Assembly (NCBI RefSeq): GCF_030867145.1
Contig: NC_134417.1
Span: 6,673,577-6,737,576 of the forward strand
Length of the DNA: 64,000 bases
Direction: 5' to 3'
From: Opisthocomus hoazin
Lineage: Eukaryota > Chordata > Aves > Opisthocomiformes > Opisthocomidae
This document shows, piece by piece, positions 25,170-63,315 of the stretch (position 1 is the stretch's first letter; each line of letters opens with the position of its first letter). Below the pieces are notes generated by a model, which made no database searches, had not been told where the DNA came from, and saw only the letters and a program-made list of their open reading frames with translations. The translations under genes and the position numbers were made by a program.

Positions 25170-26460
25170 TGCCTCCCGGTGCCGGGCAGTCCGATCGGGG
25201 GGCTGGGAGGCAGAGGGGTGCGACAGCCCCATCCGTCCACGCCGCGACACAGGTCACGGGGTTGGTCCTTTGGCCACAGCTCCTCACGAAAGCAGCACAA
25301 ATTCACCACGGGAGCAGAAGCAGTATAGGACGAAGGCTTCGGGTGCAGGCAGCCATGCAAGCGCTCGTGTCCGTTTTGTTAGCTACGGGGAAGGACGCTC
25401 AAGCCCCGTTTTAAAGCTGACTGGCAGCAGAGGTTGCGAGAATCATTTTTTCCTTTGAAAATGTGACTCGGTCAGTGACACTAAGGCTGGCGGAGAAAAA
25501 AGCCAACCCCGCGGAGGCAGCCCTGGGAGCAGGGCTCTGCCCGCCCGCCGAGGCCCCAGCCCCTCGCCCTCCCGGCGGACTGCGGAGGAGCCGAGGACGG
25601 GGCGGCCGCCCGGCTCCCGGGGCGGCCCCTCAGGAGGGCCCCGAGGCGGGCAGCGGGGCCGGCCGCACAAAGCGGGTCCCGGCCTGGACTCCCCGTCCCG
25701 GCAGCCCCCGCGCGGGCGCTGCGCCCTCCCCTCCCGCCCTCCCGCCCGCGGCCCGCCGGGCTCTGTAGTCCACATGGCGCCCCCGCGGCCGGCCGGCCCC
25801 GCCACGGAACTACATCTCCCGGCAAGCAGCGCGGCCTCCCCGCCCCGCGTCCCCCGCCGCGCCGTGTTGCTGCGCCCGGCCCGGCTCGGCCCTCCGCCCC
25901 GCTTCGCTCCCGGCGCCGCCGCCGCGGCCGAGCTCGGTGTCCCAGGACAGCCCGGGGCGGCCGCGGCTCCGTGTGCCAGGGCCCGGCATGGCACCGCGCC
26001 GCCCTTCGCCCGGGGACCGCTGGCCGTAGGTGCGGCGGGCGGCCGGGCCAGGGCGGGGATCCGCCGCTGAGGGGGCCGTGCAGGGCGGGGGGGCCGGCGT
26101 GGGGCGCTCGGAGGAGGCCGGGGCGGGGCGGGGGGCCCTGGGGGACCGTGAGGGGACTGGGAGGGGGGGGGGGCCGTGAAGTGGGGCGGAGGGTCTCTGA
26201 GCGGGGCCGAGGGGGGCTGTGGGGAGCTGAGGGGGCCGCGCTGGGGAGCGCTGGGGTCGGGGATGCCCTGAGGGGACGGGGCTGGGCGGAGGGGCCGTGC
26301 TGGGTGGGGGCTCTGGTGTTGCTGGGGCGGAGGGGAGCCCTGCGGGGAGCAGCGTGGGGTCCGGGGGCAGAACTGGGGAGCGCTGGTGGCATGGGCACGG
26401 CGTAGGGTCGGGGTTCCCCGAGGAGGAAGAGGTGCGGTGGGGAGCTGAGCTTTGCAAGGG
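25170..26460 (+). promoter_or_regulatory. STK25: CpG island with STK25 promoter
   Basis: Very GC-rich, CpG-dense DNA immediately upstream of the first STK25 coding exon, as expected for a housekeeping-type promoter. Within it lie an ACTACA-type element at 25808-25830 (aactacatctcccggcaagc), resembling the ZNF143/SBS consensus, and a partial opposite-strand counterpart at about 25761-25772 (ctctgtagtcca). An ACATGGCGCC element is similar to YY1 sites. No TATA box is seen. The long open frames here on both strands reflect composition, not coding. Confidence 0.8.
25830..26029 (+). other. STK25: Probable non-coding first exon of STK25
   Basis: The first coding exon has a good acceptor just upstream (26937), so a 5' non-coding exon must lie further left, most likely in the CpG island. 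GGCCGTAG|GTGCGG at 26029/26030 is a reasonable donor. The start is unknown; the value given is only a guess downstream of the ACTACA element. The short ORF 25988-26029 (ATG, 13 codons, TAG) ends exactly at this donor. Confidence 0.35.
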
Positions 26461-26937
26461 GGTGTACTGGGGAGAATGGGAGCAGGGGGATGCTCCCAGT
26501 GAGAAGATGACTGGCGAGCAGTAGCAGGAAAGGAGAGTCTGAGGACAGCGCTGTGGGCTGTGCTGGGGAAGATGCTGGGAGGGGTGGTGAGGGCATAGTG
26601 CTGCAGGGGCAGCTGTCATACTGGGGAGCACGCTGAGGTGACGGTGGGGAAAATGGTGCCCGAGGCTTCGTCAGTAAAGGGAGGTTCCTTGATAATGTGG
26701 AAAGAATTGAGAAATGGGGTTTACAAGGAGGGGCTGGCAGAATGGCCTGGTAGGTTCAAGGAGAACTGCAAATCGAGGAGAAAAATGGTGCAGGTAGCTC
26801 TTCTGGGAATGAGCCAGGCTCCAAGAACCTCAAGTTAGAGCTGTTGTGTTCTTGCTTGTTGCACTTGACCAGTGGATGAGAAAGCGTCGCTTTCCTGCTG
26901 TGCTACGACATCCCAGCCCTCCCTGATTTTGCAACAG
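26030..26937 (+). other. Inferred STK25 intron 1, strongly G-rich on plus strand
   Basis: 26060-26400 is made of repeated G-runs (up to about 12 G) separated by short GC-rich words such as ctgagggggccg. This gives marked G-over-C skew on the non-template strand. The rest is unremarkable. The intron end at 26937 (gattttgcaacag) is a clear acceptor; the start is inferred. Confidence 0.5.
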
Positions 26938-26961: not shown

Positions 26962-44709
<17,748 letters not shown>

Positions 44710-51179: not shown

Positions 51180-51267
51180 TCAGTCTGTGTGGCTGTCCTT
51201 CTCCTTCGGAAGCAGCAGGCTTGACCTGGCTGGAGAGCTGGTGGCTCTCTTGATCACCTCCATCCAC
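51180..51267 (-). CDS. FARP2: FARP2 last coding exon
   Basis: Acceptor CCTTTCTTGCCAG at 51268, completing Arg, then [16 protein letters not shown] and [12 protein letters not shown], with TGA at 51182-51180. WMEVI is the end of the PH2 helix. The short tail is lineage-variable. Confidence 0.95.
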
Positions 51268-54200
51268 CTGGCAAGAAAGGATGGGAGAAATGCTCAACCC
51301 CTCACTCACAGGTGCATAATCTCATCCTTCAGTTATGAGCTGTACCCTTTTCACCAAACTTCACAAAACATCTGTTTTCTACCTTCCTTTTACAGTTTTT
51401 CTAGGAAATGAGTTCTTCAAATGAATAGCCTGAGATGGGGTAGATACACTGCCGAACACGGCTGCCTGTCCACATAACAGCTCTACAGTGCTTTGAGCTC
51501 CAGAGAGCTCTTACGAGAGCACGCCGTATTCTCTTTTAAGTGTAGAGAAAGTGTTTACCAAGGAGGACAGGCTGACAAAAATTTTTCCTAGACAATGGAT
51601 TCCTTTTCTTGCAATAAATTACATAATGGACTTCCTCATACGGAAGAAAGCAAAGCAACAGCGAAAAAAAAAAGACAAAGATCCACTGTGAATTAGACAT
51701 TTTTCCCTTGAAATCACTACATGAGCCCACTACAAGAGCACAACTCTGCTGTCTCAGGTAGCTGATCTGTACTTTGCTCAGAAGTGTGTGATACTCTCCG
51801 AGGAAGGGGGAAGTATGTGACGCCTTCTCAATACAACCACACTCCAAAAACAACCAGAACATGCTCCAAAATAGACCCTGCACAGCAGAACACAATGCAA
51901 GGGTTTTCAACAGCTAATGGAAGAGCAAAGTTTTGTACGTGATGCATTTTAAACATGATTTGCTTTGGACCACGTGTGGAAGCCCCTAACAGCACTGCTA
52001 AACATAATTATGGAGAAAGCAATAAAGGGAAAAGCAACGCTACGCTTGTGGCTCTCAGCCTTGTGTTGTAAGTCCCATTTCCAGAGATTGAGAAGGGGGG
52101 GGGAAGTATTCTTACCAGAACTCTCATTAAACTAGAAACGTGACTCCCAAGACCTAGTGGCGCTGAGCATCTCACAGCCCTTCCACCTGCGCTGCTCCCC
52201 ACCTCCAAGGAAGCCCCACGCTCCTGAGACAAAGCAGAGCCTCCAGCTCTAGGTGCAACCACCAGCTCTCCACCCTAAGGAGGACGGTTCTGGCAGAGGA
52301 GGGATCGCCAGACATCATCGGTAGGAAGAGGATGGGAACTTTATTACTGAGAATGTGCTGTAAGGTCGCTTGGACTAGGAGGCAGTCAGGAGGAAAGAGA
52401 GGGCTCTAGATGATCAACCAATGAGTTAACAGCATGTTATATACAGAGACAGACAGAGAAAACAGAAAATTACCTCTCAAAGGTGTATTTGCTCTCAGCC
52501 CTGAAGAAATACACATGGGACTTGAACTGCAGCTTGAAGACATAATCCTTCTGAATGCCGTCTGCCTCTGCAGGGCAGCTGACCACATAGCCAAGCAGCG
52601 GGAGACTGGCCAAGGGATAATCGTCCTGGAAGAGCCCAACAGCCCAGCCTTTAGTGCAAGGCATCCCCTGCCACACAGTTCATCCCAACGCGCACTCACT
52701 CTTCTATACTGTACAGGTACGGTCTTTGTGGTTTTGCTTAGCAGAGAACAGGAGGAGCAGCGGCCGTTACCTTCCGCAAGGCCTCCGATGGCTTATAATG
52801 AAACCTTCCCCCAACTCCTTTCACTGTTTTCACAGAGTTACTTGCTTCTATTCCCCTGCCCCTCGCTGTCTCCTGGACTCCCTGCTTCCCCCTCCGCACC
52901 CCCTCTGGAACTCCACACACAGATGTGACATGGAAGTTAAAATATCCCTCCCAAAAGAAATGTGTCCTCAAGGCAAGAAGCCTGAATGAAATAAACAGTT
53001 TATTGGGTTAATAATGAAATGGCACAGGTTGCATTGCAGCACAGTCCGTTACCAAACAGGCGCTGAAGGCACCACGGGCAGAAAAACCCCTGATGCCTGT
53101 TTAACTCTGCTGAAGCCCAACAGGGAGAGAAATGGACAGGGACTGCCCAAAGGCTGCTGATTCCCTCATCTCCGTTAGTCACTGCACGAGAAGACATTTC
53201 CCCCCCTCACCCACAGAAGGTCAGTATCATCAACAGAACTAAGGAATCCTGATTCAATTCTGCATGAAGGGCCTGTGGTCTTACAGAGACTGGCTTCATT
53301 ACAAACTACCTCCTCTGCCACTTGTTACTCTCCTTCAAAGAGCAGTGAGCTGGAGTCGGAGCAGAAAGCTAGAGCAGAAAGCCAAGGACCTCCAGGTTCC
53401 CCCCGACACCCCAAACATTTGCTCACCTGGTGCGTTTTGTAGAAGAACAAGCAGAAGTTGGTGAAGACGACCCACAGCTTCTGCCAGCCGTTGCTGTTCT
53501 TGAATTTCCTCAGCAAGTATCCAGAGAGCTGGTTCTAGTGTAGAGTGAAAACTATCGTGAAACCACAGGTCCCTGTCCTTTGGAAAAAGGCAGCTGCCGC
53601 AGATAAAAAGCTTGAGGCTGCCTGCTATAGCCACTCCTGCACTTGTTCCCCTCTCATAAAAGCCCTCCCAGAGACTTCACATGGTGACTGAATGACTTTG
53701 TATCTTCACTAATTCACAACTATCTTATGAACAAAACAGCGATTTCTCTCCACTAACAGCAAGTTCCCCTTCACGTCTGAGTGCCCGCCATATCCCAGCG
53801 CAGTGTAGGGCAGCGCACGGGAGGGTGCCGCGCTGACCCACCCCTCCAGCAACCGCTCTCCTTCGTGGCCTACGGTCAGGAGAAAGGTGGCAGCCACAAG
53901 GGCATTCATCACTTCAACCACCTTTTTTTACATGCAGAAAAAACACATAGAAGATGCTGCGTGAGAAGGAAAATAAAGCAGACGAGGAAACAGAGGGTGT
54001 CGGAGTTGCAGACAAGCTACGTGTGGCAGCTACGCAAACGCAAGCCTGGCGTGGCAAGCAGGCTGCAGGGAAGCTGAACATTGCCATCTCGGAGACAGAG
54101 TCACCGAGCGCTTGTGCAGAGGGATAAGGAAACCTACAGCAAGTGGATTTTGTAATTAGAGAAAAAGACAGAATACGCAGCAGAATTAGACAGAGAACCA

Positions 54201-57200
54201 TTTTGGGAAGCAGAACTAGGAGGAAATCCTGTATCAAAAAGGCAACATCACAACGCTGCTGCTGCTGGCTGGGGCATCCTCCTGCCAGCACACGTGGGCT
54301 CGCTGAGCAATTACACAGCAAGCGGCAGGACACTTTCCTTGGCAGCCCATGGTTCCTCCCCACCAGCGCAGAACTTGCGAGGCATTTTTACCTGGATCAT
54401 GCACAGGTAATCAGACAGGGATAGGCTCTGGTTCCGGTACCAACAAACATGGGTGATTGTGTTGGGCCGTTGGGCCTGGCCCAGCAAATAGCGAGGAGGA
54501 AGCTCTGGAGAAACAGCAAGAGAGCAGAAAACTGAGCAGAGAAAAGGGGGAGAGAAAGAGAAAAATGGAACGTTAGGATAAGGGAAGTGATGCAAGAAAG
54601 GCGTCTGTTAAAGGAAAATGGATTGTGGAAAAAAAATGATGGTATTAGAACATGGAACACATCAAAGCAAGAGGGAGCTGCAAGAACTCACACGTTTAAT
54701 CCCAGAGTCTGTAGCAGGGAGGTCTCATTATCCACGTACAGAACAGCAAGATGGTGCCTTTCATAAGGGTATTGGCAGGGAAAGCAAGGCTCGTCCCCTC
54801 TGATAGAAACCACTTTCTTTGCCAGCGCAAGTGCCCAACTTCTGGACCATAAGCCATGGTAACCCCTATAGGACCTCCTTTACTGAGCCGATTGATACGC
54901 TTTCTCCATCACAAAAACCCAGGAGCCTCAGTGCCCAACGCCCAACTTTGAACCCCTTCCAATAAACAGAAAGTGCCTTAACAGCACAGCAGGAAAGGTA
55001 GGAAGGTACAAACACCCGGGTGCGATGCCCTGCCCCACTGCCACCTGTCTTAGTGACCTCCTTGCTCTCTCCATGGCATTGGGGTCCTTCTCACTTCTAG
55101 AAGTCTTCCAAGCATGCCAGCCTCCAGGAAGGTGTCCTACCCAACCGACCTGGCCAAACTGCTGCCTAAGGTGAAACTGTAGGGCCCATGCAAGCAGCGC
55201 TCTGCGCAAGGAGCGGTGAGCAGACATCTGCCTCAAAATCTGCAGGACTCAGTACCAAAACGTGCCACCACCGCTGCATCAAGCTGTGCTGAGTGGTAAG
55301 AGCCAAGGTAACAGCAGCTCAGCGGGTACATAATAAACGTCTGTTCAGCCTAACACGACACTGCTGTAAAATGGCACTTCCTAATGCTTGCTGCTCACCC
55401 TTGCCAGTGAACGAAGGGCAGAGCAGTCTTATTCCCACTGAGCTTAACTCTGAATTCTAGGGCCAGTACAGTAGGTAACCAGACCTCAGTACAGCAGTCA
55501 TTCTCTGAAGGAGAATATCGTGGACAGGTAACTTATCCTCCAGCAAGGCCCATGAAACCAAAGGAACAACCCAGTCCTAAGATGTCCTGGGTTTCCTTTA
55601 AAATTTTCCTCCTTCAGTGCCTTTGCTACAGCAAAGCCCTGCTGCCAGGAGAGCCGAGTATGTGTACGCGGACACGTAGACATGCACAGAAAGGGGCAAA
55701 CATGCAGCGGCCTTTTGATGGCCCATGCTCTCCCGCGGATGCAGAGACACTGCGAAGGCGAAATGGGAGATGGAGCGGCGGCCGAGCGAGCCAGGATGGA
55801 CAGAGTGAGATGCGAGAGCTGCGCCCTGGGGGTACCTCGACAGCCACACTGTGGTCAGTCATGGAGACACTTGTGTTGCGGTACCAGCACACGTGCATGG
55901 TTGTGTTGGCACGGTGGTGGCTCTGCCTGTCCAAGGAGCTATGAGAAGAGTGTATGTCATCTTCGGACTCCTGTTCTAGAGAGACCTCGTCAGAGGATCC
56001 TGGGAGGGGAGAATTCAGCAGCGGTTTAAGACAACTGTGCAATACAAAGAGCAAGAGAAGCAGAGATTCCTGAGAAAAACTGTTTTCTCTTGCCATGCTC
56101 CAGTTTTAAAATAGGTCAGCTTGAACTGGCTACCCAGCTCCTAAAGGCCACTCGGAGCAGGTTGCTCTGGCTTTCATTACTCAGCTCTGCTTGGGGCAGC
56201 TGACTCAATACTCTGTAAAACAAACAAACAAAAAGCCCCACACTTCATCTTCAGTTGATTCTTAGCGAGGAATAGGAAGAAATGCTCCAAGAAGGGATGC
56301 TACATGTCTCAGCAAATCCGTAACACCACCAGAGACAGGCACAAGAGTGCTGGGCTATAAAAGAACATGCTCCATCCCAAAGACACCACATTTCTGGACA
56401 AGAAAACACACTACATGGTTAAACTGAGAAAAATCTATGTAAGAGAACAAGGAGGGACTTGTAACTTGTAACACACAAGGAGGGACTGGTTGACGATATG
56501 CAGGTTGGAGGTAGACTCGGCTGCAGTGACCATGAAATGGTGGAGTTCAGGATCCTGAGCGGAGGAAGCAGGCTGATAAGTAGGATCAAAACCTTGGACC
56601 TCAGGAGGGCTAACTTTGGCCTTTTCAAGGAGCTACTTGGAGGAATCCCATGGGCCAGGGCTCTCGAAGGCAGAGGGATCCAAGAGTGCTGGTCGCTGTT
56701 TAAACGTCACTTCCTCCATGCTCAGGATCGGTGCATCCCCCTGAGAAAGAAATCGAGCAAAGGAGGCAGGAGACCCGCATGGATGAGCAAGGAGCTTTCA
56801 GTGGAGCTCAGGTAGAAGAGAAAGGTCCATGGAATGTGGAAAGAGGGACAGGCCACTTGGAAAGAGCATGCAGAGATGCAACGAGGAAGGCTAAGGTCCA
56901 CCTGGAATTGACGCTGGCAAGGGATGTCAAAAACAACAAGAAGGGCTTCTTCAACTACATCAGCAGCAAAAGGAAGGCTAGGGACAATGTGGGGCCGCTA
57001 CTGAACGAGGTGGGTGTCCTGGTGACGGAGGATGCAGAGAAGGCAGAGCTACTGAATGCCTTCTTTGCTTCAGTCTTCAATGCCAAGGCTGGCCCTCAGG
57101 AATCCCAGGCCCTGGAGGTAAGACAGGAAGCCTACAGAGAGGACGACTTTCCCTTGGTCAAAGAGGACTGTGTGAGGGATTGCTTAAGCAATCTGGATGC

Positions 57201-60200
57201 CCACGAATCCATGGGCCCCGATGGAATGCACCCATGAGTGCTGAGGGAGCTGGTGGATGTTGCTGCTGAGCCACTCTGCATCATCTCTGAAAGGTCCTGG
57301 AGGACAGGAGAGGTGCCTGAGGACTGGAGGATAGCCAATGTCACTCCTATCTTCAAAAAGGACAAGAAGGAGGATCCAGAGAACTACAGGCTAGTCAGCC
57401 TCACCTCCACCCTGGGAAAGATGATGGAACAGCTCATTCTAGAGGCCATCATCAAGCAAGTGGAGGAAAAGAAGGTTATCAGGAGTAGTCAGCATGGATT
57501 CACCAAGGGGAAATCATGCTTGACCAGTCTGATAACTTTCTATGATGGCATGACTGGCTGGGTAGATGAAGGGAGAGGCGTGGATGTTGTCTACCTAGAC
57601 TTCAGCAAGGCTTTTGACACTGTCTCCCATAACATCCTCCTAGGGAAGCTCAGGAAGTGTGGGCTGGATGAGTGGTCAGTGAGGTGATTGAGAACTGGCT
57701 GAATGGCAGAACTCAGAGGGTTGTCGTCAGCGGCGCTGAGTCTAGTTGGAGGACTGTAACCAGTGGTGTCCCTCAGGGGTCAGTACTGGGCCCAGCCTTG
57801 TTTAACTTCTTCATCAGTGACCTGGATGAAGAGTTAGAGTGTACCCTCAGCAAGTTTGCTGATGACACCAAACTGGGAGGAGTGGCGGATACACCGGCAG
57901 GCTGTGCTGCCATTCAGTGAGACCTGGACAGGCTGGAGAGTTGGGCGCAGAGGAACCTGATGAAATTCAACAAGGGCGAGTGCAGGATCCTCCACCTGGG
58001 GAAGAACAACCCCATGCACCAGTACAGGCTTAGGGCTGACCTGCTGGAGAGCAGCTCTGCGGAGAGGAACCTGGGTGTCCTGGTGGGACGACAGGTTGAC
58101 CATTGAGCCAGCAGTGTGCCCTGGCTGCCAAGGCGGCCAATGGCATCCTGGGATGCATTAGGAGGAGTGTGGCCTGTAGGTCGAGGGAGGTTCTCCTCCC
58201 CCTCTACACTGCCCTAGTGAGGCCCCATCTGGAGTACTGTGTCCAGTTCTGGGCTCCCCAGTTCAAGAAAGATGAGGAGCTACTGGAGAGAGTCCAGCGG
58301 AGGGCTACGAGGATGGTGAGGGGACTGGAGCATCTCTCCTACGAGGAGAGGCTGAGGGAGCTGGGCTTGTTCAGCCTGAAGAAGAGAAGGCTGAGAGGGG
58401 ACCTTATAAATATCTCACGGGTGGGTGTCAGGAGGATGGGGCCAAGCTCTTTTCAGTGGTGCCCAGTGACAGGACAAGGGGCAATGGGCACAAACTGAGG
58501 CACAGGAAGTTCCATCTGAACATGAGGAAGAACTTCTTCCCTCTGAGAGTGATGGAGCCCTGGAACAGGCTGCCCAGGGAGGTTGTGGAGTCTCCTTCTC
58601 TGGAGATATTCAAGACCCGCCTGGACAAGGTCCTGGGCAGCCTGCTTTGGAACACCCTGCTTCGGCAGGGGGGTTGGACTAGGTGACCCACAGAGGTTCC
58701 TTCCAACACCTAACATTCTGTGATTCAGTGAAGAGAAGAATAAGGACCTTATAATCCTTCCAACCCCTACCATTCTGTGATTCTGTGGTTCTATAAAATC
58801 AGTAATTCTGCAACTGGAGCATCTCTGCTACATTTAAAGCTACCAGGAACATCAGTCTAGGAGAACAAGTATATTTCTTTTAATTGAAACAAAACGAAAG
58901 CACAATAATTATTCATTACTAGATAAATTATAAAAATATTCCATTTATGTCATCAAATTCACAACTGGAAAAATGAAAAAGAAATGACAATGGATGCTTT
59001 TCAAGAAGGCAGGGAACACCACTTACTGTTGGAGCGATTGCATACTGAATTTTCCAGAAGCATGTCAGATTTCTCAGCAGATTTCTTGGACATTTCAATC
59101 GCCATGTTTAGGTCTTCCATCCACTTCCCCATCTCCATGCGGGTACTGCAAGACAAATGATGTGAATGGAGACCACCCCAGCCTGGAGCCATGAGAGTGT
59201 GCTAGTTTGCTGAAGGAAGGCACCAGTCACTGCCCAATACAAGAAGCAGACCCTTTCCATTAAATAAAAAAATAAAATTCCTCCAAACCATAACCTTTTC
59301 TGGATACGAAGCTGATCTCACACAGCCTTCACCTCTATTTTCAAGCCTCGCAACAAGACTAAAATAACCATTAAAAACTTGGACTTTACAGCAAACAGAA
59401 TGAATATAGAGCCAGAGGGCCCCATAACATTCCCCTCTGGAGCTATCAGACTCAGACGAGGAATTATGCGGTCTAGGCCATCGCTGCTCTTCAGAGACCT
59501 TCATAGCTGGTGGGTTATTTATAACACGAAATCATGTTTTCACTCCAAAACGCATTTTGGAGATGGGTGGTATGACCATACTGGAAATGATTTTTTTTGA
59601 AAGATAAAAGGCAACCTGAAAGACAGCACATCTTTTAAAGGGGAAGCAGGATTTACCTCACATCTTGAGCAAGTAAAGCACAGAGTGCAGGAAGATGAGG
59701 CCTTCTTTCACCCCACATAGTTTCCGTTACAGGTTACACGGCTCATGCCATGATTACAGGGTAAGAGCTTCACAGCTCATTTACGTGTATCTATACCCAT
59801 CGGTATGCACCAGTGTAAGGTTTTCCTTTAGACATGGCCACATGGCCGTGGCATTTCTTTTTTTACCTCTGGCTACATTCCCTGGGTGCACAATTGTTGT
59901 TTGAAGCACCATATACAGTTACATGCTCTTGTGTTTGCTTGAGAGGGTCTGTGAGACTTTTTTGGTAACCACCTCTTTTTTCTGAAAGTTTTTAATTTAG
60001 ACTGAAAATTCCATGCATGGTCTAAGCCCAGCAGCAATTTTTTTTTACAGATAGAGAGAGGTAACTTCAGAAAAACAACCTTTGAGCTATTTCTAAGTTA
60101 TGACAAGGTAAAGATTATATTTATGTTTCCAAATTTAAGAACCGTGCAAGCACTTTTTGATCCCCAGCTGCTGAGAAGTGGTCGATCTTAAAAATAATTG

Positions 60201-63200: not shown

Positions 63201-63315
63201 AGGTTATCTATACCAATCAAGTCATGCTGCAGCTCTGTCAGCTTCTGGAAATTCTCCAGGCGGATGAGACTGTGCTGCAGCTGAGATGTCATTTCTGTGA
63301 CTTCCCTCAGTGCGT
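51180..63315 (-). CDS. FARP2: FARP2, FERM/RhoGEF/PH protein 2 (3' third)
   Basis: FARP2 is a FERM-DH-PH-PH protein known to link semaphorin-3A/plexin-A signalling to Rac1 and to act on Rac/Cdc42 in osteoclasts and neurites. Standard path (minus strand): 63315-63185, 62361-62293, 61904-61815, 61113-61031, 59145-59027, 55999-55836, 53534-53427, 52625-52474 and 51267-51180. This totals 1004 nt, or 333 residues plus TGA. Exons in order give the DH end ([14 protein letters not shown]), PH1 ([20 protein letters not shown] to [19 protein letters not shown]), an acidic linker ([11 protein letters not shown]) and HVCWYRN. PH2 follows ([20 protein letters not shown] to SKYTFERWMEVI), then a short basic tail ending KDSHTD. 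FARP2 is chosen over FARP1 because of [32 protein letters not shown] and the STK25/BOK neighbourhood. FERM and most of DH lie right of the window. Two further exons (54392-54504 and 61399-61419) appear to be alternative. Confidence 0.97.
52474..52625 (-). CDS. FARP2: FARP2 exon: PH2 second half
   Basis: 152 nt. Acceptor GGGCTCTTCCAG, donor [54 protein letters not shown] and [10 protein letters not shown] plus two bases. Confidence 0.96.
53427..53534 (-). CDS. FARP2: FARP2 exon: PH2 first half
   Basis: 108 nt. Acceptor CTCTACACTAG|AACCAG, donor [32 protein letters not shown] then [16 protein letters not shown]; phase 0 at both ends. The upstream AG is chosen over a second AG six bases later because NQ is conserved in the family. 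Confidence 0.95.
54392..54504 (-). CDS. FARP2: FARP2 alternative linker exon (alternative B)
   Basis: 113 nt. Strong acceptor CTCTCTTGCTGTTTCTCCAG, donor [23 protein letters not shown], then [17 protein letters not shown] and LSDYLCMIQ. The second half aligns with alternative A at 13 of 26 positions, including an unbroken HVCWYRN. It has the same entry phase (1) and exit phase (0), so it can replace A exactly. It reads on into [10 protein letters not shown] of PH2. It looks like an old tandem exon duplication kept under selection. Confidence 0.8.
55836..55999 (-). CDS. FARP2: FARP2 linker exon, standard form (alternative A)
   Basis: 164 nt. Acceptor TTCTCCCCTCCCAG, donor [32 protein letters not shown], then [17 protein letters not shown] and MTDHSVAVE. 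Enters in phase 1 and leaves in phase 0. It matches the form I know from mammalian FARP2 ([26 protein letters not shown]). Confidence 0.95.
56475..58735 (+). mobile_element. CR1 LINE, long 5'-truncated copy with dead ORF2
   Basis: About 2.26 kb, antisense to FARP2 inside its intron. It begins in the C-terminal endonuclease part ([13 protein letters not shown]). It then carries reverse transcriptase motifs ([69 protein letters not shown]) and the 3' UTR, and ends with a CR1 tail cattctgtgattcagtg. The reading frame is broken by a frameshift near 56.8 kb, an in-frame TGA at 57235-57237, a frameshift near 57.68 kb and further stop/frame changes near 57.92-58.10 kb. It cannot encode an active enzyme. 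It is flanked on the left by a 13-bp direct repeat of its own start (acaaggagggact at 56447-56459 and 56475-56487). Confidence 0.95.
56498..58498 (+). pseudogene. CR1 ORF2 (endonuclease/reverse transcriptase) remnant
   Basis: Coding remnant of the CR1 above, spread over at least four open pieces (56498-56815, 56731-57237, 57238-57687, 57672-57920) plus a C-terminal piece at 58103-58400. The RT palm motif F-A-D-D is still visible near 57855-57870. Multiple lesions make it a molecular fossil. The C-terminal open frame after about 58400 runs into the non-coding CR1 3' region. Confidence 0.9.
58750..58795 (+). mobile_element. Second CR1 tail abutting the long copy
   Basis: ttccaacccctaccattctg followed by tgattctgtggttct is another CR1 3' terminus immediately right of the long element's tail, in the same orientation. 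It is the remnant of a separate, probably older copy. Confidence 0.8.
59027..59145 (-). CDS. FARP2: FARP2 exon: PH1 C-terminal helix
   Basis: 119 nt. Acceptor TTTGTCTTGCAG, donor [31 protein letters not shown] is the PH1 helix, followed by [14 protein letters not shown] and CNRSN. It ends one base (A) into a codon that either downstream alternative exon can complete: AGA with 55999-55836, AAG with 54504-54392. Confidence 0.96.
61031..61113 (-). CDS. FARP2: FARP2 exon: PH1 later strands
   Basis: 83 nt. Acceptor CTTTTTCTGCAG, donor [31 protein letters not shown] and KTIVVAA plus two bases of the next Ser codon. Confidence 0.96.
61399..61419 (-). CDS. FARP2: Candidate 21-nt microexon in FARP2 PH1
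   Basis: It lies between two certain PH1 exons in a 701-nt intron. A pyrimidine-rich acceptor (TTCTTTCTGTGTTTGATTTGCAG) is followed by 21 nt encoding LIVLDPP, then a strong donor CCACCG|GTAAGT. Both flanking junctions are phase 0, so inclusion adds seven residues between HGML and VEESENEW without changing frame. As I recall, the human protein joins GML directly to VEES, so this would be a cassette exon. It is unproven without transcripts. Confidence 0.6.
61815..61904 (-). CDS. FARP2: FARP2 exon: PH1 middle
   Basis: 90 nt. Acceptor CTGCCTTTTTCAG, donor [30 protein letters not shown] and [12 protein letters not shown]; phase 0 at both ends. Confidence 0.96.
62293..62361 (-). CDS. FARP2: FARP2 exon: PH1 first strands
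   Basis: 69 nt. Acceptor ATTTTCCACTGCAG, donor [32 protein letters not shown] then FFL; 23 codons, phase 0 at both ends. Confidence 0.96.
63185..63315 (-). CDS. FARP2: FARP2 exon: end of DH domain
   Basis: 131 nt. Acceptor GTTTCCTTACAG|ACGCACTG, donor GGTAGG|GTAAGT. Encodes [15 protein letters not shown] and [17 protein letters not shown], the last DH helices, then NLTAPGR leading into PH1. Starts in phase 1. Confidence 0.96.

Follow-up and report, generated by a model that had tools for sequence, protein, structure and literature searches.

Human mutually exclusive exon (MXE) clusters, as described in PMC5740500, consist of neighbouring homologous exons of the same phase that are swapped between isoforms. 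Joint inclusion of such exons can shift the reading frame, as 377 of the 629 clusters (60%) contain exons whose lengths are not divisible by three. Tandem duplicated exon substitutions, described in PMC9741552, are likewise homologous neighbours swapped between isoforms. In the case of U2AF1 exons Ab and 3, according to PMC5224494, the homologue whose splice signals are less favourable dominates, and use of the other is kept low despite its long polypyrimidine tract; exon Ab has weak, clustered branch points. At the protein level, PMC6041286 describes the crystals of FARP1 and FARP2 as autoinhibited, with the GTPase site blocked by PH2 together with other elements. The same paper presents both proteins as proposed pseudo-GEFs whose true GEF status and activation are debated, and lists roles of FARP2 in plexin-dependent axon repulsion, dendrite development and bone homeostasis.

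The window, by which we mean the whole stretch of 64,000 nucleotides that was analysed, contains the 3' end of FARP2, a Rho-GEF gene with a part in remodelling the cytoskeleton, on the minus strand, with the last exons spanning positions 63315 to 51180. Two of them, exons A and B, are adjacent homologous exons that share the same phase. The features are as follows.

63315-63185, minus strand: e1, FARP2 upstream exon (e1 to e4 encode the end of DH and PH1)
62361-62293, minus strand: e2, FARP2 upstream exon
61904-61815, minus strand: e3, FARP2 upstream exon
61113-61031, minus strand: e4, FARP2 upstream exon
59027..59145, minus strand: e5, 119 nt, the exon upstream of A/B, ending one base into a codon (..CCAACA at 59027)
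55836..55999, minus strand: exon A, 164 nt, acidic linker plus core, the form present in both solved FARP proteins
54532..54604, minus strand: long pyrimidine tract 5' of exon B, with a branch-point-like site, TCCTAAC, at -42 from 54531
54392..54604, minus strand: candidate extended exon B, from a third acceptor at 54604, its frame open and continuing that of exon A
54392..54531, minus strand: exon B, long form, 140 nt, encoding (I) plus 46 residues
54392..54504, minus strand: exon B, short form, 113 nt, the version of the original prediction
53427..53534, minus strand: e7, 108 nt, downstream of A/B, start of PH2, phase 0
52474..52625, minus strand: e8, 152 nt, FARP2 PH2
51180..51267, minus strand: e9, last coding exon, stop TGA at 51182-51180

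The assignment of the gene to FARP2 was confirmed. The spliced exon-A protein matches FARP2 (4gzu) with 318 bits over the DH-PH-PH part, ahead of the 289 bits obtained with FARP1 (4h6y), and nearly all relatives among the matches listed carry the name FARP2. Pfam identifies FERM, FA, RhoGEF and two PH domains in P0022, a duck relative of the B form, the window itself holding the last exons only.

Exon A begins with GATCC after ag and ends with GTCGAG before gtaccc, and short exon B begins with AGCTT after ccag and ends with ATCCAG before gtaaaa. GT-AG sites are present throughout A, B and the neighbouring exons. The lengths, splice sites and phases first proposed for exon A and short exon B thus agree with the sequence, and realignment reproduced the proposed identity of 13 of 26 residues. 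The resemblance lies in the second half of each exon alone, and the two lengths differ. The Smith-Waterman score of A against B is 83, and the highest among 20,000 shuffles is 46. When exon B alone was compared with PDB, it matched 4gzu (E 2.8e-4) and 4h6y (E 7.6e-4), both at the stretch encoded by exon A; these were the sole chains at E<=10. In tblastn searches of the window, A and B each find the other, and a third copy above background was not found. Judged by sequence, A and B are homologous.

As a kind, such a pair is ordinary, namely mutually exclusive exons whose joint inclusion shifts the frame. Use of A only, or of B only in its long or short form, leads to the normal stop TGA at 51182. 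Joining A to B through the usual sites leads to TGA at 54399; this stop lies 265 nt upstream of the last junction, so that the product should be a good substrate for decay. With neither exon, translation meets TGA at 52497, and the skipped product might escape decay because this stop is merely 21 nt upstream of the last junction. The prediction that exactly one exon must be used therefore holds at the usual sites, where the A+B stop at 54399 is present, but strict exclusivity was an overstatement, as an open frame in the phase required after A runs from the acceptor at 54604, and both exons occur in 21 of 146 B models among the matches listed. Among known means of enforcing exclusivity, steric hindrance (less than 50 nt between the A donor and the B branch point) and U2/U12 incompatibility were ruled out. 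Steric exclusion is inapplicable because about 1.3 kb separates the A donor from the B acceptor, and all sites are GT-AG.

Exon B has tandem acceptors at 54531 and 54504, 27 nt apart and in the same frame. The start first proposed, 54504, is the downstream one of the two, and the longer form was missed. Among the matches listed, many B proteins begin exon B nine residues earlier than the short form, with starts such as IFSSPAVSPE in fish and IFCSSTASPE in a shark before L-P, and acceptor 54531 of the window encodes a long-form start of the bird type. The long form (54531, 140 nt) is thus the widespread form of B, and the 113-nt exon is a shorter variant. The short start, KLPP or KLSP, is found in 15 proteins among the matches listed, by name from turtles, lizards and birds; for duck and for falcon, models with long B and models with short B exist side by side.

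To follow exon B beyond the window, we assembled 194 distinct proteins from three queries: the last part of exon B together with the first part of PH2 (best 120 of 1830 matches), duck exon B (best 120 of 145) and possum exon B (all 3 of 3 matches, representing two marsupials and the axolotl). All figures refer to the matches listed, and all proteins with B are predicted from gene models. Exon B is present in 146 of these 194 relatives and 48 have A only. Judging by protein names, B among the matches listed comes from 18 bird species, 4 turtles, 4 squamates, the axolotl, 9 frogs, 2 marsupials, 6 sharks and numerous ray-finned fish, with sturgeon and paddlefish among these. We compared the 37-residue part of duck B that is common to both B forms. 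It is identical (37/37) in falcon and rhea, and is conserved at 36/37 (97%) in a gecko and at 33/37 (89%) in a turtle and in zebrafish. The axolotl has 83% identity, the two marsupials have 81 and 75%, three sharks 29-30/37 (78-81%) and a frog 51%. Elsewhere in the protein, duck and zebrafish or sharks share 43-46% identity in the FERM-DH linker, 69-71% in FERM and 87-90% in PH2. The identity of exon B between duck and sharks or zebrafish (78-89%) is therefore close to that of PH2 and far above that of the FERM-DH linker. This is the pattern that a used coding exon would show. Loss of B in related species had been named at the outset as an observation that would speak against the pair, and predicted proteins were found to keep B from sharks to birds. 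Conservation of both A and B at the protein level suggests that each has been under selection. The frog FARP2 models P0063, P0065-P0069 and P0071-P0073 have an unusually diverged DH (45% against duck in Hyla), and their exon B is diverged as well.

Among the matches listed, no B was found in eutherians, in FARP1-type proteins or in galliforms, where chicken, turkey and golden pheasant are represented with A only; galliform B may have been lost or may merely be unmodelled. The search seeded with possum is weak evidence of loss in eutherians or monotremes, since it failed to reach even birds. A snake entry named FARP1 (P0134) has A and B of the FARP2 type.

The swap had been placed just before PH2, and this position was borne out. 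As exon B ends directly before the residues of P0022 that match PH2 (930-1023), the swap is limited to the PH1-PH2 linker, the same position as in the FARP1 and FARP2 DH-PH-PH crystals 4h6y and 4gzu. Both of these chains contain exon-A sequence, and no PDB chain carrying exon B was found. The FARP2 structure was reportedly published by He et al. in 2013. AlphaFold jobs for the B form (51 proteins, P0022) and the A form (31 proteins, P0100) gave mean pLDDT values of 45.7 and 48.7; over the swapped segment pLDDT was about 22-42, which is too poor to judge the PH1-PH2 packing change first suggested, and the models were used for no claim.

Exon A carries an acidic stretch, and exon B does not. Exon B instead carries LPPRY, a PPxY motif, which is a type of ligand for WW domains. 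Among the matches listed, PPxY is found within the 32 residues preceding HVCW in 122 of 146 B proteins, within 60 residues in none of the 48 A-only proteins, and elsewhere in 7 of the 146 B proteins. The 24 B proteins without PPxY are those of all six sharks, all nine frogs, five turtle proteins, one of the two marsupials and three odd joins, and PPxY is possibly a later gain, as it is missing from these proteins. An SPE site, part of long-form B, is present in 110 of 146 B proteins among the matches listed.

Two further observations concern exon A itself. Its core reads HVCWHRN in a fish, a tunicate, an insect and FARP1 (P0117, P0101, P0111 and P0042), and HVCWYRN, like exon B, in birds and reptiles; the difference could result from one substitution or from conversion from B. 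In several bird models (P0081, P0088-P0090, P0092-P0094, P0096, P0098, P0099 and others), exon A begins differently (LKPLPNSPPPGSSDEV...), and in the window 16 in-frame residues are readable upstream of A. This start is perhaps a variant A acceptor or an artefact of annotation.

With respect to splicing signals, exon A has a weaker donor and a weaker tract than exon B, resembling the dominant U2AF1 homologue described in PMC5224494. Scored with generic base frequencies, the A donor has -1.1 bits, the weakest of nine scored, and the B donor 3.2 bits. The last 60 bases before B are 83-87% pyrimidine, and no further AG occurs upstream of B back to 54604. Unlike the weak, clustered branch points of U2AF1 Ab, the branch-point-like site TCCTAAC of FARP2 exon B looks strong. 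PTB-type motifs before B number 12 against 10.3 in dinucleotide shuffles, with 160 of 500 shuffles reaching 12, and the UGC motifs in the same place do not exceed the shuffles either. A PTB-type repressor is therefore a guess, as its motifs are no commoner than in shuffles. One UGUGU lies before B, which is above the shuffles (25 of 500 reach it), and one UGCAUG is located 455 nt into the 857-nt intron between B and e7.

The explanation that we favour, and consider very likely as a whole, is that an ancient exon duplication gave rise to A and B, which FARP2 uses as alternatives, swapping a segment between PH1 and PH2. Our confidence is strongest for the exon-pair part, which we regard as highly probable. 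Exon A would be the default form. Exon B, preceded by a long pyrimidine tract such as polypyrimidine-binding repressors occupy, would be used where repression is lifted, perhaps by tissue or stage as first suggested, and nonsense-mediated decay would eliminate messages in which the usual sites join A to B. In the protein, A would give a longer acidic linker. B would give a shorter, non-acidic linker that keeps the core and adds PPxY, together with an S-P-E site when the long form is used. With PH2 unchanged, B may re-tune the hold of the linker on the autoinhibited DH-PH-PH module, or change which partners or kinases release it. This protein-level part, the re-tuning of the autoinhibited module by linker B, is a guess that we put forward tentatively. 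We think it rather improbable, going further, that the B isoform is a readily activatable FARP2, in which the non-acidic linker, the WW-docking motif and the S-P site let partners or kinases lift the PH2 lid, kept since before the split of sharks and bony vertebrates and lost in eutherians. On that proposal, structural work on the A form would explain the pseudo-GEF look of mammalian FARP2.

Exon B could also be an extra cassette, joined to A in frame via the upstream acceptor at 54604 so that both cores are present in the protein. Among the matches listed, A and B lie in one frame in the 21 models mentioned above, and partial A is found in two further B models. The pigeon model P0001 joins A to an extended B equivalent to the join that is open at 54604 in the window, and seven fish models (P0121, P0122 and P0128-P0132) have a similar short bridge. 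We nevertheless judge this unlikely, since the A core is absent from 125 of the 146 B models among the matches listed, the usual sites lead to the stop at 54399, and the bridges vary in sequence and length across species and mostly resemble translated pyrimidine tract. Exclusivity of A and B is thus strong, but not absolute.

That exon B is a decayed or unused copy surviving in gene predictions alone would agree with its absence from the galliform and eutherian proteins among the matches listed and with the seven matches listed for the sources 'lgn' and 'jgi' (P0075-P0078, P0080, P0101 and P0117), all of which have A and none B. We consider this very unlikely, because B in the window is open with intact splice sites and because its conservation between duck and sharks or zebrafish approaches that of PH2 and far exceeds that of the FERM-DH linker. 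Least probable in our view is that B is a regulatory poison exon, included together with A to destroy the message and lower FARP2. The A+B stop, 265 nt before the last junction, is well placed for decay, but a pure poison exon has no need of the frame of B and its fit to PH2 that are kept from sharks to birds.

Compared with the human MXE clusters of PMC5740500, the pair of alternative exons favoured here differs in its absence from the eutherian proteins among the matches listed and in its unequal lengths, with the second halves alone alike. A search of the literature by title and abstract found no description of the FARP2 A/B pair, and the main texts of PMC9741552, PMC5740500 and PMC5224494 do not contain 'FARP'. 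PMC6952364 gives Farp2 primers with which a novel exon was to be validated. The original remark that the pair had not been described agrees with the papers searched, but databases already list predicted B-bearing FARP2 isoforms (under names such as X2-X7). The pair stands out for the age of B, for its location within the linker of an autoinhibited module, for the two acceptors of B in tandem and, among the matches listed, for the lack of B in eutherian and galliform proteins. Because nature itself swaps the PH1-PH2 linker, and has conserved the swap deeply, the pair offers a ready-made test of how the GEF module of FARP2 switches on. If eutherians do lack B, work in mouse and human would miss it, and the suitable model species would be zebrafish, ducks or opossum.

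Other elements were observed in and around the gene. The intron between e5 and A contains a long stretch, 56460-58790 (approximate, by eye), resembling a retrotransposon remnant, which we take to be of the CR1 type; CR1-type remnants are common in birds. Long open frames overlap on both strands at 25446-26755, which is probably a GC-rich stretch and not genes. On the plus strand, 33601-34089 is a protein-kinase exon (Pfam Pkinase), presumably of STK25 or a close relative, which would lie tail to tail with FARP2.
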